Assembly: GCA_944391325.1 (NCBI GenBank)
Contig: CALXTC010000008.1
Location: forward strand, 1-36,509
Reading direction: 5' to 3'
Source of the DNA: an uncultured Candidatus Saccharibacteria bacterium
GTDB taxonomy: Bacteria > Patescibacteriota > Saccharimonadia > Saccharimonadales > Saccharimonadaceae
DNA length: 36,509 nt
The first letter of the stretch is position 1; each line of letters begins with the position of its first letter. The notes under the pieces were generated by a model. The model did not search any database, was not told the DNA's origin, and saw only the letters and a program-made list of their open reading frames with translations. The position numbers and the translations under genes are program-made. Positions 2,255 through 23,650 of this stretch are shown here, in pieces.

Positions 2255-2423
2255 ACCACCCCAGTAGGGGGGGGGTAATTCTCAGAACCTAAACCAACGG
2301 CTTAGCCTTACCTCCCATACTAGGAAAGGTCACTTACAAGAGCGACCACGGAACAACCGGCACTCTCTATACCTTGCCTCCCCTACTAGGGGAGGTGACT
2401 TGCATCGCAAGTCGGTGGGGTTC
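2255..2423 (+). repeat. Array of three related hairpin repeats in the leader
   Basis: Three imperfect units begin at about 2255, 2310 and 2377, spaced 55 and 67 bases. Each has a pyrimidine-rich arm (CCACCCC, CCTCCCA, CCTCCCC), a loop containing AGTA or ACTA, and a purine-rich arm. The last unit is intact: CCTCCCC (2377-2383) pairs with GGGGAGG (2389-2395). Then GACTTGC (2397-2403) pairs with GCAAGTC (2407-2413), followed by GGTGGGGTTC. The middle unit aligns to it with decayed arms. This 300-base stretch has no other gene. The intact unit has the same layout as the copies around 22363-22993. Confidence 0.7.
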
Positions 2424-5156
2424 AAAACCATCACTATCGCTTGCTTAGCCTTAGCCCTCATTAGCACTATCTCCCTCAACATCATCAGAACCTACTCCAT
2501 TAACAACACTAGGACTAATGCCCTAGGCAGTAGTAGTAACTATAACAGTAACTCTAGTCCTCTTTCTGACCCATCCGCCATTAGATTATCTATCACGAAT
2601 GGAACTAACTCATGTAGTAATACCCAATTAACTAACGCTGGTGATGTCTGTATTAACACTCCCACCAATGACGCCAAAGTTGCCGTTGGTAGTCATACCC
2701 TAACCATAGAAGTAGGTGACTATGTAGACATCCTAAAGGTAACCCTAGGCGCATATAGCAATGGTAATAATAACTACCTAGTCAACCAGTCAGACAGTAG
2801 CCTAGTTATTCCTCCAACTAATGGTTCGCTTACTAATCCTCAATCCCTAACAGCTAGTGACCATAATGTTGGTAGCTGGGGTTATGCTATACCAGGAGAG
2901 TTTGGCTTTGACCCCATCTCTCAATATACCGATACAACAACCCTAGAGCAGGCTAAGTTTGCCAAGGTTCCCCAAGGCTACTTACCAGACACTATCCTAC
3001 AGATTGATGACGTTAACCAACCTGAGTATACTAAACAACTTTATTATGGTATTCGCCTAAACAATCCCATCAACACACAGGCAGGCGTATATTCACAAGT
3101 CATTACCTATACCGCTACTGCCACCATTCCTACCCCCACTCTCACTAGACTAGTCGTCAATGACTCAGTCCAACAAAACCAAACCAGTGAATTTGCCATA
3201 GAGGGTACTAATCTAGATACCGTCTCTAGCATTAAACTATGCCCAACTGGTCAACAACCAGATACTACCACTACCAACTGCTATGAAGTACCTAGTGGAG
3301 ACATAGATACCTACCTAGACGACACTACCACCTCAACCAAAGGTACTATCCTATCCTTTACTAACCCAGCCATCTCAGAACCAGGTACCTATGACCTATA
3401 TACCATCTCCCCAGCTGGTCAAACTAAACTAGACCAACCCTTCATTGTCCAAGAACAATCTACCTGCCGTAATGGTGATCCTAACTCAGACTGCCAAGTA
3501 GACATAGATAACAATATGATCCCCATCTACTATGCTGGTAATAACACAGATGGTTCTGCTATATGGAAAGTAGCCAATGTTAACAACCTAGGTGAATGGT
3601 ATGACTATACTAAGAAGCAGTGGGCCAATGCCGTTACTGTCCAATCCAACAAACTCACTACCTACAAGAACAAACCGGGTACAGTCATTAACAACAATGA
3701 TGTCCTCGGTTACTGGGTCTACATTCCTAGATACGCCTATGAAGTCCAACGTCCTAATGCCATAGACAGAGTAGTCACTGATGAATACCCATTACCAGAC
3801 AACAGGATAACCAACAACTACAATAGCCACTCCATTAGAAACGAATTCTCCATCCACTTTGAAAAAGCCACAGACACAAAGAAAACACCCGCTGAAACAT
3901 GTAATACACTAAACATAACCAATCCTAACCAAATGTGGGCTAATGGCACACCAACAGAAGAAGCTGGCCCAGACAACACTAACATCCTAGCCAAAGACTA
4001 CCGCACTGGCTGTGCTGCCCAAGGTAATACCAATAATATCTCTCGTCTATACACAGATGCCAACGGAAAAGGTAACAATACCACCTGGGCTACCCATCCT
4101 GCCTTTACATTCGGTAGTACCGAACTAAACGGCCTGTGGATTGGTAAGTTTGAAACCACTGGCAAGGTTAACGCTCCAACCGTTAAACCCAATCAACATG
4201 CTAACGTCAGTGAATACATTGGTGAATTCTACACTATGGCTAGAAGTATTGGTACGGGTACTTATGACCCAACTAACAATGGCGGTAATACCATCCCTGA
4301 CATTACCCAGAATTCCCACAACCTAAATAAAGCTACTAGTCATATGCTCAAAAACTCTGAATGGGGCGCTATAACCTACCTAGCCTCCTCTAAGTACGGT
4401 GCTGGTACTAATAACGTCTCTATTAACAGTGCTAATCCGCCATCTACCTCAACTGATGCTGATGGAAATAGTTCTAGATACGGCATCACCGGTTGTGGCC
4501 CCAGCAACATTAACCGTTCAACTACCGACTATAGTTCTGTCACCACCTCAACTGGTGAAACAGCTGACCTACCAGCGCTATCCAGTAGCCATATAGAGGA
4601 TCCCCTAGCCTGTGGTGATGTCGATCATTCCTACGTAGGCAGTATTGGTCAACTAGCCAGCACGACTAACAACGTCTACGGCATTTACGACATGTCCGGT
4701 GGAACCTATGAGCATGTTATGGGCAACTTAACTAGTTATGACGACCAATCTGAATCTGATCTTACCGTCTACACTAGAAACCCCATTAAGCCACCTTATA
4801 TAGACCTATACAAAGAATCCCTAGGTTTTGACTATTCTAGCAGCGATGATACCAAACCAGCTTGGTCGTATTCGACGGGTGTTTTAAGTGCTATGGACTA
4901 CAACAACGACGTCTGTGCCTGGGGCACCTGTGGTGGCCATGCCCTACACGAAACTAAACAATACCAGTCGGTCTCGAGCGGCCACCAGTCCTGGGGAGAC
5001 GATTTCTCCTCCTTCGTCTACTCGAGCTTTCGTTGGTTCCAGCGTGGCGGTAACGCGTATAGTGGTTCCAGCGCTGGGTTGTTCGCCTCGGGCGGCGGCA
5101 ATGGCCGCAGCGTCAATCAATACGGGTTCCGCTCTGTGCTGCTGGCCGCTCCGTAA
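2400..5156 (+). CDS. Large exported surface protein with a variable-type C-terminal lectin-like domain
   Basis: The 918-residue product begins with a basic stretch and a hydrophobic segment (about residues 9-27) that acts as a signal peptide or anchor. Threonine/asparagine-rich extracellular domains follow. Residues about 245-355 resemble an IPT/TIG immunoglobulin-like domain. The rest matches the sulfatase-modifying-factor/FISUMP-like type, with LWIGKFETTG, NSEWGAITYLASSKYG and IYDMSGGTYEHVMGN. The end, WFQRGGNAYSGSSAGLF followed by YGFRSV, matches the C-type-lectin fold used by targets of diversity-generating retroelements. The start is TTG 2400 or GTG 2415, and both lie inside a hairpin repeat. 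Up to about 4960 the coding strand has far more C than G, unlike every neighbour. Beyond that it becomes G+C-rich with mostly NNC/NNT codons. A role in host attachment is inferred. Confidence 0.85.
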   Translation: MHRKSVGFKTITIACLALALISTISLNIIRTYSINNTRTNALGSSSNYNSNSSPLSDPSAIRLSITNGTNSCSNTQLTNAGDVCINTPTNDAKVAVGSHTLTIEVGDYVDILKVTLGAYSNGNNNYLVNQSDSSLVIPPTNGSLTNPQSLTASDHNVGSWGYAIPGEFGFDPISQYTDTTTLEQAKFAKVPQGYLPDTILQIDDVNQPEYTKQLYYGIRLNNPINTQAGVYSQVITYTATATIPTPTLTRLVVNDSVQQNQTSEFAIEGTNLDTVSSIKLCPTGQQPDTTTTNCYEVPSGDIDTYLDDTTTSTKGTILSFTNPAISEPGTYDLYTISPAGQTKLDQPFIVQEQSTCRNGDPNSDCQVDIDNNMIPIYYAGNNTDGSAIWKVANVNNLGEWYDYTKKQWANAVTVQSNKLTTYKNKPGTVINNNDVLGYWVYIPRYAYEVQRPNAIDRVVTDEYPLPDNRITNNYNSHSIRNEFSIHFEKATDTKKTPAETCNTLNITNPNQMWANGTPTEEAGPDNTNILAKDYRTGCAAQGNTNNISRLYTDANGKGNNTTWATHPAFTFGSTELNGLWIGKFETTGKVNAPTVKPNQHANVSEYIGEFYTMARSIGTGTYDPTNNGGNTIPDITQNSHNLNKATSHMLKNSEWGAITYLASSKYGAGTNNVSINSANPPSTSTDADGNSSRYGITGCGPSNINRSTTDYSSVTTSTGETADLPALSSSHIEDPLACGDVDHSYVGSIGQLASTTNNVYGIYDMSGGTYEHVMGNLTSYDDQSESDLTVYTRNPIKPPYIDLYKESLGFDYSSSDDTKPAWSYSTGVLSAMDYNNDVCAWGTCGGHALHETKQYQSVSSGHQSWGDDFSSFVYSSFRWFQRGGNAYSGSSAGLFASGGGNGRSVNQYGFRSVLLAAP
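4958..5153 (+). other. Candidate DGR variable region
   Basis: The last 65 or so codons change abruptly in composition. They consist largely of NNC or NNT codons at positions where diversity-generating-retroelement targets carry mutagenised AAY codons. They encode the RGG...AGLF...GFR pattern of lectin-fold variable proteins. No template repeat or reverse transcriptase is present in this window. Confidence 0.5.
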
Positions 5157-20924: not shown

Positions 20925-20957
20925 GCACCCTCGCCGATCGTTGGCGAGGGTGCTTTC
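20925..20957 (+). terminator. Intrinsic terminator after the 20572 gene
   Basis: GCACCCTCGCC (20925-20935) pairs with GGCGAGGGTGC (20943-20953), an 11-bp perfect stem, then TTTCATT. Confidence 0.8.
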
Positions 20958-20996
20958 ATTGTGCATGCATCTTGCACCTATCATGCAGTGCTATCG

Positions 20997-21005
20997 TGAT
21001 AAAAT
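20997..21005 (+). promoter_or_regulatory. Extended -10 promoter of glyQS (leaderless)
   Basis: TGA-TAAAAT ends 7 bases before ATG 21013. It rules out the longer reading frame that opens at a TTG inside the preceding terminator. Confidence 0.65.
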
Positions 21006-21012
21006 ATTAACC

Positions 21013-22362
21013 ATGGATGACATTATTTCACTATGTAAACGACGAGGTTTTATTTATCAGGGATCAGATATCTATGGTGGTCTAGCTGGCACCTGGGACT
21101 GGGGGCCGTTTGGTATAATGCTGAAACGGAATGTGATGCAGGCCTGGTGGAACTTCTTTGTAGACAAGCGCCCCGACATTTTTGGTGTTGATGCGGAAGT
21201 TATTATGAACCATAAGGTTTGGGAGGCGAGTGGCCATGTCAAGACCTTTGCCGACCCCATGGTCGAGGACTTGGTTAATCATAAGCGTTGGCGCGCTGAC
21301 CACTTATTAAAAGATCATGGTATTGATGCCGATGGGTTGACCAACGACGAGCTGACAAAGCTAATTCAGGATAATAATGTTAAGTCACCTGACGGTAATC
21401 CACTATCAGGTGTTAAAAGTTTTAATATGATGTTCCGGACTACTGTCGGTGCCATCGAGAGCAGTGATGCGGTAACTTATCTGCGACCAGAGACGGCTCA
21501 GGGTATTTTTGCAAACTATCGCAACGTGGTTGACTCATTGTATCCAGATATGCCATTTGGTATTGCTCAGCAGGGCAAGGCCTTTCGCAATGAAATTAGT
21601 CCTCGTGACTTCATCTTTCGTTCACGCGAGTTCGAGCAAATGGAAATCGAATATTTTGTCCATCCTGATCAGTGGGAGGCTGAGTTTGAAAATTGGCTAA
21701 AATTAGTTCATGAGTTCCTAGAGCAGGTAATCGGCTTGCCAGCCAAGATGATTCACGATTATGAAGTTCCCGCGCAGGATCGAGCACACTATAGCAAGCG
21801 AACGATTGATGTTAACTTCGATTATCCAATTGGCCAAGAGGAATTGATGGGGATTGCCTATCGGACAGACTTTGATTTGATGAACATTCAGAATGCGACG
21901 GGCAAGTCAATGGAATATCGACCCAAGGATGGTGGCGAGCCGTTTGTGCCACATGTTATCGAGCCGTCCTTTGGTGTGGAGCGACTAATTATGGCAATAT
22001 TAACGGCTTGCTATACCGAGGACGAAGTAGACGGTAGCAAGCGCACACTATTGAAGCTGCCTAAGAGTCTAGCGCCAGTAGTTGTGACGGTATCGCCCCT
22101 ACTAAAGAACAAGCCTGAGTTAGTTGCCAAGGCTAAAGAAGTCTACAACCAGTTGCAGCAGGCGTTTCCAGGCCGAGTAAATTGGGATGATAGTGGCAAT
22201 ATTGGCAAACGCTATCGCAAAGCAGATGAGATTGGCGTGCCACATTGTGTAGTAATTGACTTTGATAGTCTAAACAATGACGATGTTACTGTACGTGACC
22301 GCGACACAACTAAGCAGACACGAGTCAAGGTGTCCGAACTAGCTGAATATCTGGGAAAATAA
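21013..22362 (+). CDS. glyQS: Glycyl-tRNA synthetase, dimeric alpha2 type
   Basis: This class II synthetase charges tRNA-Gly with glycine. The 449-residue product is the single-chain alpha2 type, not the two-subunit GlyQ/GlyS type of Proteobacteria. Family blocks are clear: IYGGLAGTWDWGPFG near the N-terminus and TYLRPETAQGIFANYRNV. Motif 2 is in FRNEISPRDFIFRSREFEQMEI, here quoted only to locate it between about residues 194-215. Motif 3 is PHVIEPSFGVERL, and a C-terminal anticodon-binding domain follows. The start is ATG 21013, which fits the leaderless promoter. A hairpin repeat begins immediately at the stop codon and may end transcription. Confidence 0.96.
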   Translation: MDDIISLCKRRGFIYQGSDIYGGLAGTWDWGPFGIMLKRNVMQAWWNFFVDKRPDIFGVDAEVIMNHKVWEASGHVKTFADPMVEDLVNHKRWRADHLLKDHGIDADGLTNDELTKLIQDNNVKSPDGNPLSGVKSFNMMFRTTVGAIESSDAVTYLRPETAQGIFANYRNVVDSLYPDMPFGIAQQGKAFRNEISPRDFIFRSREFEQMEIEYFVHPDQWEAEFENWLKLVHEFLEQVIGLPAKMIHDYEVPAQDRAHYSKRTIDVNFDYPIGQEELMGIAYRTDFDLMNIQNATGKSMEYRPKDGGEPFVPHVIEPSFGVERLIMAILTACYTEDEVDGSKRTLLKLPKSLAPVVVTVSPLLKNKPELVAKAKEVYNQLQQAFPGRVNWDDSGNIGKRYRKADEIGVPHCVVIDFDSLNNDDVTVRDRDTTKQTRVKVSELAEYLGK

Positions 22363-22534: not shown

Positions 22535-22590
22535 AGCTCCCTTGGGATCAAGGGAGCTGTCAGTCCATTAGGGCTGACTGAGGGTTCGAT
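22535..22590 (+). repeat. Two-hairpin repeat, left arm of the DUF559 unit
   Basis: AGCTCCCTTG (22535-22544) pairs with CAAGGGAGCT (22549-22558). GTCAGTCC (22559-22566) pairs with GGGCTGAC (22571-22578), followed by TGAGGGTTCGAT. The inner end encodes the last residues of the DUF559 protein on the minus strand. Confidence 0.75.
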
Positions 22591-22936
22591 CAATATACTC
22601 CTCAATAAAGTCAACTACTCCAGCTAGATTATAATTAATCTCATTGTTTGGTATGCGTATAACCGCCTTAATGCCGTATTCCATTAATTCTTTTGTTCGT
22701 TTATTGTCATACTGAATACCTTTATCTAAATAATGTTGCGATCCATCTAGTTCGATTACTAAATGTAGCTTAGGACAGTAAAAATCTACTATAAAATTGC
22801 CGATTGGCTTTTGTCGTAGAAATCTAACGCTACAGTTACGTAAGTATCTATACCATAAAGTTTTTTCTTCTTTGGTCATATTGCTACGTAGCTGTCTAGC
22901 GAGTTGTTTGTTGTTCTGGTTATACATTCTACCCAT
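22568..22936 (-). CDS. Stand-alone DUF559 (Vsr-like PD-(D/E)XK) endonuclease
   Basis: The 122-residue product is a complete DUF559 domain, a relative of the very-short-patch-repair endonuclease fold. An N-terminal helix-rich part (LARQLRSNMTKEEKTLWYRYLR) precedes the nuclease core. The core is NFIVDFYCP with D51, then VIELDGSQH with E62 and D64, then the ...YDNKRTKELMEYGI helix. All expected acidic residues are present, so it may be active; the natural substrate of this family is not established. The start is ATG 22936 or 22927, with no Shine-Dalgarno or evident promoter. The last seven residues are encoded by the flanking repeat. Codon use is more A+T-rich than the surroundings. Repeats on both sides suggest transfer. 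Confidence 0.85.
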   Translation of the reverse strand: MGRMYNQNNKQLARQLRSNMTKEEKTLWYRYLRNCSVRFLRQKPIGNFIVDFYCPKLHLVIELDGSQHYLDKGIQYDNKRTKELMEYGIKAVIRIPNNEINYNLAGVVDFIEEYIDRTLSQP

Positions 22937-22940
22937 AAAA

Positions 22941-22993
22941 TCGAACCCACCGATGAGCTTTGCTCATCTGCCTCCCTTGAGGCTCAAGGGAGG
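22941..22993 (-). repeat. Two-hairpin repeat, right arm of the DUF559 unit
   Basis: TCGAACCCACC (22941-22951) is followed by hairpin GATGAGC/GCTCATC (22952-22958 with 22962-22968). Then comes a near-perfect palindrome CCTCCCTTGAG/CTCAAGGGAGG (22971-22981 with 22983-22993). Confidence 0.8.
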
Positions 22994-23451: not shown

Positions 23452-23527
23452 CGGGGTGTGGCGCAGTTGGTAGCGCGCAGCGTTCGGGACGCTGAGGTCG
23501 CCTGTTCAAGTCAGGTCACCCCGACCA
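23452..23527 (+). tRNA. tRNA-Pro (anticodon CGG)
   Basis: The acceptor stem is CGGGGTG with CACCCCG, discriminator A, and an encoded CCA (23525-23527). The anticodon stem CAGCG/CGCTG encloses loop TTCGGGA, giving anticodon CGG for CCG codons. D- and T-arms fold normally. Confidence 0.95.
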
Positions 23528-23571
23528 AGTTGAAAAAAGTGTCACTGTATGTTAGCATAACTAGTGCATAT

Positions 23572-23650
<79 letters not shown>

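Follow-up and report, generated by a model that had tools for sequence, protein, structure and literature searches.

Why should the gene of a small predicted nuclease be enclosed by two inverted copies of a structured repeat? The question arises in a 36,509-nucleotide stretch of an uncultured Candidatus Saccharibacteria bacterium (CALXTC010000008.1, the window), which is contig C8 of a 27-contig, 624-kb genome (G000). A 458-bp unit made of an arm, a gene of the DUF559 family and an inverted arm separates glyS (20941-22362) from two tRNA genes (23452-23650). An earlier note on this DNA had taken gene and repeats for a possible minimal mobile unit, whose nuclease may recognise or move the repeats. 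We find that the mobility of arms and gene as a unit is well supported. The 458-bp unit is probably a minimal, autonomous mobile element in which a nuclease of Vsr fold acts on triplex-forming ends. Given that such units are present in very different bacteria, that sites change between occupied and empty, and that gene-less copies exist, this appears to be a type of minimal mobile element that has not been described so far.

The two repeats face each other in opposite orientation, as the earlier note had described (Table 1). Each folds as DNA into two hairpins, with energies of -17.4 kcal/mol for the 3' arm (z -5.5) and -16.8 kcal/mol for the 5' arm (z -5.3), and no shuffled sequence was equally stable. 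Both inner ends are GGGTTCGAT, confirming a common end that points inward. The placement of the gene was likewise correctly read: its ATG and the inner end of the 5' arm lie 4 nt apart, and its last seven codons and stop codon are inside the 3' arm. The 3' arm is of a type, GCTCCC..GGGAGC TGTCAG..CTGACTGAGGG, that also occurs on the 3' side of clostridial DUF559 genes. This layout is not due to chance, because an independent second unit in the same genome, on contig C25 adjoining lepA, has the same arm types and layout and encodes a protein 50% identical. Searching Rfam with the window returned the two tRNAs only, the arms being without a match. A reading of GGGTTCGA as a tRNA T-arm was not supported, because copies differ in their inner sequence (ATTGT, TTTAA, TTCGAT).

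Table 1. Arms and gene of the DUF559 unit, and a further arm, in the window. Scores are those of covariance model (CM) R1, built mostly from sequences of other genomes with both window arms included, or of the family profile.
Feature	Position	Strand	Score
3' arm	22536-22590	+	CM R1 50.9 bits
3' arm, hairpin 1	22535-22558		
3' arm, hairpin 2	22559-22578		
3' arm, mirror tail GAGGGTT, ending ..TTCGAT	22579-22590		
DUF559 gene, 122 aa	22568-22936	-	PF04480, E 2.1e-28
5' arm	22940-22993	-	CM R1 45.1 bits
5' arm, hairpin 1	22993-22971		
5' arm, hairpin 2	22968-22952		
5' arm, mirror tail GTGGGTT	22951-22940		
Solo arm, same type, without partner	2377-2425	+	CM R1 34.0 bits, E 5e-8

The anatomy of the arms suggests what the nuclease might act on. 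From outside to inside, an arm consists of a hairpin, H1, with CTCCCT as its pyrimidine and AGGGAG as its purine strand; a second hairpin, H2; and a purine tail (GAGGGA). The H2 stem is variable, with 152 distinct forms among 227 arms. Read in mirror order, the inner tail (GAGGG..) matches the purine strand of H1; in the two window arms, purine strand and mirror tail read AAGGGAG..GAGGGTT and AAGGGAGG..GGTGGGTT. A purine-motif third strand requires the mirror of the purine strand, forming the triads G.GC, A.AT and T.AT. H1 and tail covary at three positions (p 9e-16, 1e-19 and 4e-20), values that are inflated by sequence kinship, yet both forms are present within single genomes. A change of T-A to C-G in H1 goes with a change of A to G in the tail, at position 3 (100/0 versus 4/15); the counts are 80/4 versus 3/29 at position 7 and 81/3 versus 3/28 at position 8. 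Mirror matches average 6.39 of 8, versus 5.53 in shuffled pairings, where the highest of 2000 shuffles reached 5.77. As the covariation is the one expected, the arms are predicted to be of the intrastrand purine triplex type.

Judged by their sequence, the arms belong to the published BoxC/PIT/TM class of intrastrand triplex repeats, known since the 1990s: pyrimidine arm, purine arm and mirror third strand lie on one DNA strand. Holder et al. (2015) described these repeats as dispersed and intergenic, present in many bacteria and linked to genome instability; they report never having found mobility genes around the E. coli motif, the only one for which a triplex in solution has been published (PMC4666352). 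The published ITxF search takes loops of 1-6 nt, which the Deinococcus and E. coli copies have, whereas window and clostridial arms instead carry H2, a hairpin of about 15-30 nt, as second loop. Unlike the published repeats, the inverted pairs described here hold a DUF559 gene. Recurrent G-rich repeats of the same hairpin-plus-third-strand layout are reported from Methanomicrobiaceae archaea (PMC8044849). The mirror third strand, the class membership and the short gene-less derivatives described below go beyond the earlier note.

Is the gene regularly accompanied by such arms? A DUF559 profile run against 84,980 species genomes yielded 80 loci; the profile was made from four proteins, an alignment of eight being too diverse, and the loci are hence biased to close relatives, mostly metagenome-assembled genomes of gut Clostridia. 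An inverted-repeat score of at least 20 across the gene was reached by 46% of the 80 loci; of 1224 random intervals and of 512 other open reading frames (ORFs), 0.4% each did so. Among the Clostridia the 5' arm typically ends 0 nt from the ATG, and the C-terminus of the gene lies within the 3' arm. A generic finder of triplex motifs, set to an 8-nt purine arm with no more than one mismatch and using the other ORFs of the same loci as controls, placed a triplex-type motif beside 88 of 95 DUF559 genes from several phyla, versus 40 of 566 control ORFs. Such a motif stands on at least one side of 71 of 75 clostridial genes versus 37 of 496 controls (Fisher, 1.5e-57), and of 17 of 20 genes in a diverse set from Deinococcus, cyanobacteria, Proteobacteria and others versus 3 of 70 (Fisher, 1.2e-12). 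It stands on both sides of 41 of the 75 clostridial genes and of 2 of the 496 controls. DUF559 is the sole gene repeatedly seen between facing arms; other genes found there (L102, L107, L111, L112, L115) were rejected as host genes or chance, and no alternative nuclease was among them.

The number of repeats also follows the gene, a check that the earlier note had proposed. Within one clostridial family of 150 genomes, repeats occur in 37 of the 45 with DUF559 versus 31 of the 105 without (odds ratio 11, p 2.8e-9), and the median copy number is 9 versus 0; repeats are thus not equally common in the two groups. In the host's own genus, G000 holds 14 arm matches versus 0 in its genus mate G001, an assembly that is 95% complete and lacks DUF559. 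Directly after glyS, G001 has a two-hairpin sequence of weak similarity (contig C31; L021 331-380), which the covariance model leaves unscored. ycjD of E. coli is a DUF559 gene with BoxC-type repeats on its 3' side, and most of its region finds a match in about 3360 of the 5426 complete genomes of that species. The sapF-fabI region was considered as a clean empty site and rejected, strains without ycjD having an efflux operon there; ATCC 25922 and strain 115 carry this operon after sapF instead of ycjD (L033, L034, L035). In Pseudanabaena galeata a DUF559 domain is part of a very large protein, encoded by a 4866-bp gene in a BREX-type cluster (L203 3879-8744).

Do arms and gene move together? 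The 101 distinct clostridial units are bimodal in size: 52 are shorter than 160 bp, consisting of two arms and no gene, and 33 measure 400-480 bp. The gene-less inverted pairs, of 105-145 bp, resemble miniature inverted-repeat transposable elements (MITEs). Many units are flanked by AAAG and CTTT. Direct repeats of 2-9 nt, as a target-site duplication would leave, are not in excess at the 101 clostridial junctions, and one Deinococcus site has a 3-nt TCA repeat that may simply stem from the start and stop codons. Occupied and empty sites are found in Deinococcus operons. In the hpa operon the ox-hpaE junction holds a unit in NW-56 and is empty, with overlapping ORFs, in D. deserti, D. ficus and D. 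proteolyticus; between hpaB and ox there is a unit in D. proteolyticus and a decayed one in D. wulumuqiensis, versus 0-33 bp in D. deserti, D. ficus and D. radiodurans. D. psychrotolerans has a unit between paaD and paaZ, a stretch that is shorter by about 450 bp in QL22. The empty sites are without a repeat, and arms and gene were gained or lost jointly. The gene is thus not tied to one syntenic place, and its co-occurrence with the arms, together with these filled and empty sites, supports the proposal of a minimal mobile unit. At ox-hpaE, D. wulumuqiensis and D. radiodurans have an SMI1/KNR4 family gene (L207, L208) where NW-56 has the DUF559 unit; the junction is possibly an insertion hot spot.

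In Clostridia a gene-less pair common to genomes G199 and G202 is absent at the matching site of G375. Comparison of loci L166 and L186 places the start of a gene-less pair and its companion repeat in the loop of a terminator hairpin that is intact in G202, suggesting hairpin loops as targets. The outer flanks of units show slight extra complementarity (5.36 versus 4.43, with a score of at least 8 in 13% versus 1.4%), which is only a hint of such targets because nested arms inflate complementarity. In one clostridial genus, many copies (L166, L169 and L170 in G199, and relatives) have the companion repeat next to the 3' arm; it is about 130 bp long, always ends at the arm and may be part of a longer element.

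The protein itself is a predicted nuclease. Family profile, fold and conserved E/D/H residues place it in DUF559 (PF04480) with a PD-(D/E)XK fold like those of Vsr and I-Bth0305I. Its AlphaFold2 (AF2) model has a pLDDT of 87.5, and the best Foldseek matches in the PDB are NGO0050 (3hrl, 1.1e-5) and the catalytic domain of I-Bth0305I (3r3p, 4.9e-4), followed by Vsr. Residues E24, D51, E62, D64, H68 and D77 are intact and invariant across 44 relatives. Median dN/dS among clostridial copies is 0.07, indicating purifying selection; the function of the protein is therefore kept. YcjD had earlier been assigned to PD-(D/E)XK enzymes and placed in the neighbourhood of Vsr (PMC1189080).

Within the host family a DUF559 match occurs in only 3 of 198 genomes. 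In the protein tree the clade holding both G000 copies is dominated by Bacillota (98/98); a copy in G156, of the same host family, is in another clade and has a different arm type. These placements are suggestive of lateral spread, although G156 may be contaminated. Elsewhere in the window, the solo arm lies directly upstream of, or overlaps, the start of a 918-aa ORF, and its mirror tail GGTGGGGTT matches AGGGGAGG. This arm and its flanks are found at four more places in G000 (L209-L212, on C3, C22, C23 and C19), apparently a duplicated gene family carrying the arm along.

Do these observations require that the nuclease moves the arms? Several points weigh against it. Repeats are present in the 31 clostridial genomes without a DUF559 match, from assemblies of unstated completeness, and this is the main evidence against strict dependence; some such genomes are repeat-rich, for example G308, which has at least the matches listed. 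At least 5 of the 14 G000 copies are within one duplicated gene family and are therefore not independent insertions. The flank of the clostridial empty site in G375 also differs, and among the clostridial loci examined there was no sharp junction or clean empty site. In E. coli, ycjD is at a single fixed place, with repeats on one side. Arm layout depends on the clade, being H1-H2-tail from outside in among Clostridia and H1-tail-H2 from inside out in Deinococcus.

Arms and gene could travel together while something else moves them, for example an HUH transposase working in trans or a host repair or replication process that acts on structured DNA, with DUF559 as a passenger serving, for example, defence or repair. 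Structured DNA alone rearranges, and TM-bearing E. coli loci are unusually rearranged (PMC4666352); repeats persist at high copy number in assemblies without the gene, PADLOC gives weak matches to models of a methyl-directed restriction enzyme and DpdF, and the Caulobacter DUF559 protein VsrA is reported to trigger the SOS response upon loss of cytosine methylation (PMC12907096). We nevertheless consider a passenger unlikely, given that no other gene recurs between facing arms, that copy number tracks DUF559, that the association, enriched 25 to 49 fold, spans several phyla, and that strong purifying selection maintains the nuclease. A free-standing homing-type or other endonuclease gene inserting into triplex or hairpin repeats already in place, which would make the repeats its target and not its ends, is improbable as well. 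Its gene is always between inward-facing arms at near-constant spacing, its start codon abutting one arm and its stop codon lying within the other; the repeat-free empty sites in Deinococcus operons and the bimodal sizes, as for an element and its deletion derivatives, do not fit insertion into existing repeats, even though the fold matches a homing endonuclease, a PHROG homing endonuclease family is matched and solo repeats far outnumber gene-bearing units. That the arms are nothing more than ordinary bidirectional terminators or translation-coupled hairpins beside small genes, with no mobility, is very hard to credit: an A-rich outer flank precedes the unit, a T-rich one follows it and some copies stand beside terminators, but a terminator needs no third-strand covariation, the same arms surround one gene family in several phyla, other ORFs at these loci are without them, gene-less inverted pairs exist in many copies, and occupied and empty sites contradict it.

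If the unit is a mobile element worked by its own nuclease, the following steps can be envisaged. The purine tail would lie back on H1 as a third strand, and the nuclease would read the folded arm and nick or cut at the foot of H1, outside of which the consensus is AAG|. Either the whole unit or a derivative that keeps both ends but lacks the gene would be excised or copied and re-inserted via host repair, without target-site duplication in the clostridial copies and often near terminators or at gene junctions. Short gene-less pairs would be moved in trans, and the solo arms of BoxC/PIT/TM type would be relics that either stayed behind or spread in trans. Binding and cutting by DUF559, the order of the steps and the descent of solo BoxC repeats from such elements are what we infer; the suggestion that the nuclease recognises or moves the repeats has come through the comparisons the earlier note proposed, and its action on the arms keeps that same standing.

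How does this unit compare with known systems? Like repetitive extragenic palindromic (REP) sequences and REPINs with their REP-associated tyrosine transposases (RAYTs), a comparison already drawn in the earlier note, it has one small nuclease gene framed by hairpin repeats, along with solo and paired non-autonomous copies, and like RAYTs and IS200-IS605 elements its clostridial copies are without target-site duplication. The comparison holds only as an analogy; the enzyme there is of the HUH/Y1 type, whereas DUF559 has the Vsr/PD-(D/E)XK fold, and in place of a GTAG-type guide there is a mirror purine tract, with arms that are unlike at the two ends. The fold and the conserved acidic and His residues are common to EDxHD/Vsr-like homing endonucleases such as I-Bth0305I, to NGO0050 and to YcjD. 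Unlike homing genes, the unit is not in an intron or intein and is framed by its own structured ends; it does not keep to one conserved site, occupying varied sites in the same Deinococcus operon and many per clostridial genome. A long autonomous unit with short gene-less derivatives sharing its inverted ends recalls insertion sequences and their MITEs, but there is no DDE transposase and no target-site duplication in the 101 clostridial units. The unit differs from RAYTs, DDE insertion sequences and homing genes in its enzyme class and likewise in its end structure. Among the open-access papers searched, none was found that joins DUF559 with inverted or triplex repeats; novelty is provisional, subscription journals and most preprints being outside the search.

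Whether DUF559 units are a separate and widespread class of mobile element, a lone Vsr-fold nuclease on intrastrand-triplex ends, and the source of BoxC/PIT/TM repeats across bacteria, including those beside E. coli ycjD, appears to us evenly balanced. DUF559 is a very common family annotated as of unknown function, and its link with the arms gives it a testable role, that of a nuclease with a physically unusual substrate, while BoxC/PIT/TM repeats gain a candidate source. If true, this would be a mode of transposition outside the DDE, HUH, serine and tyrosine enzymes, in which the ends are read by shape.
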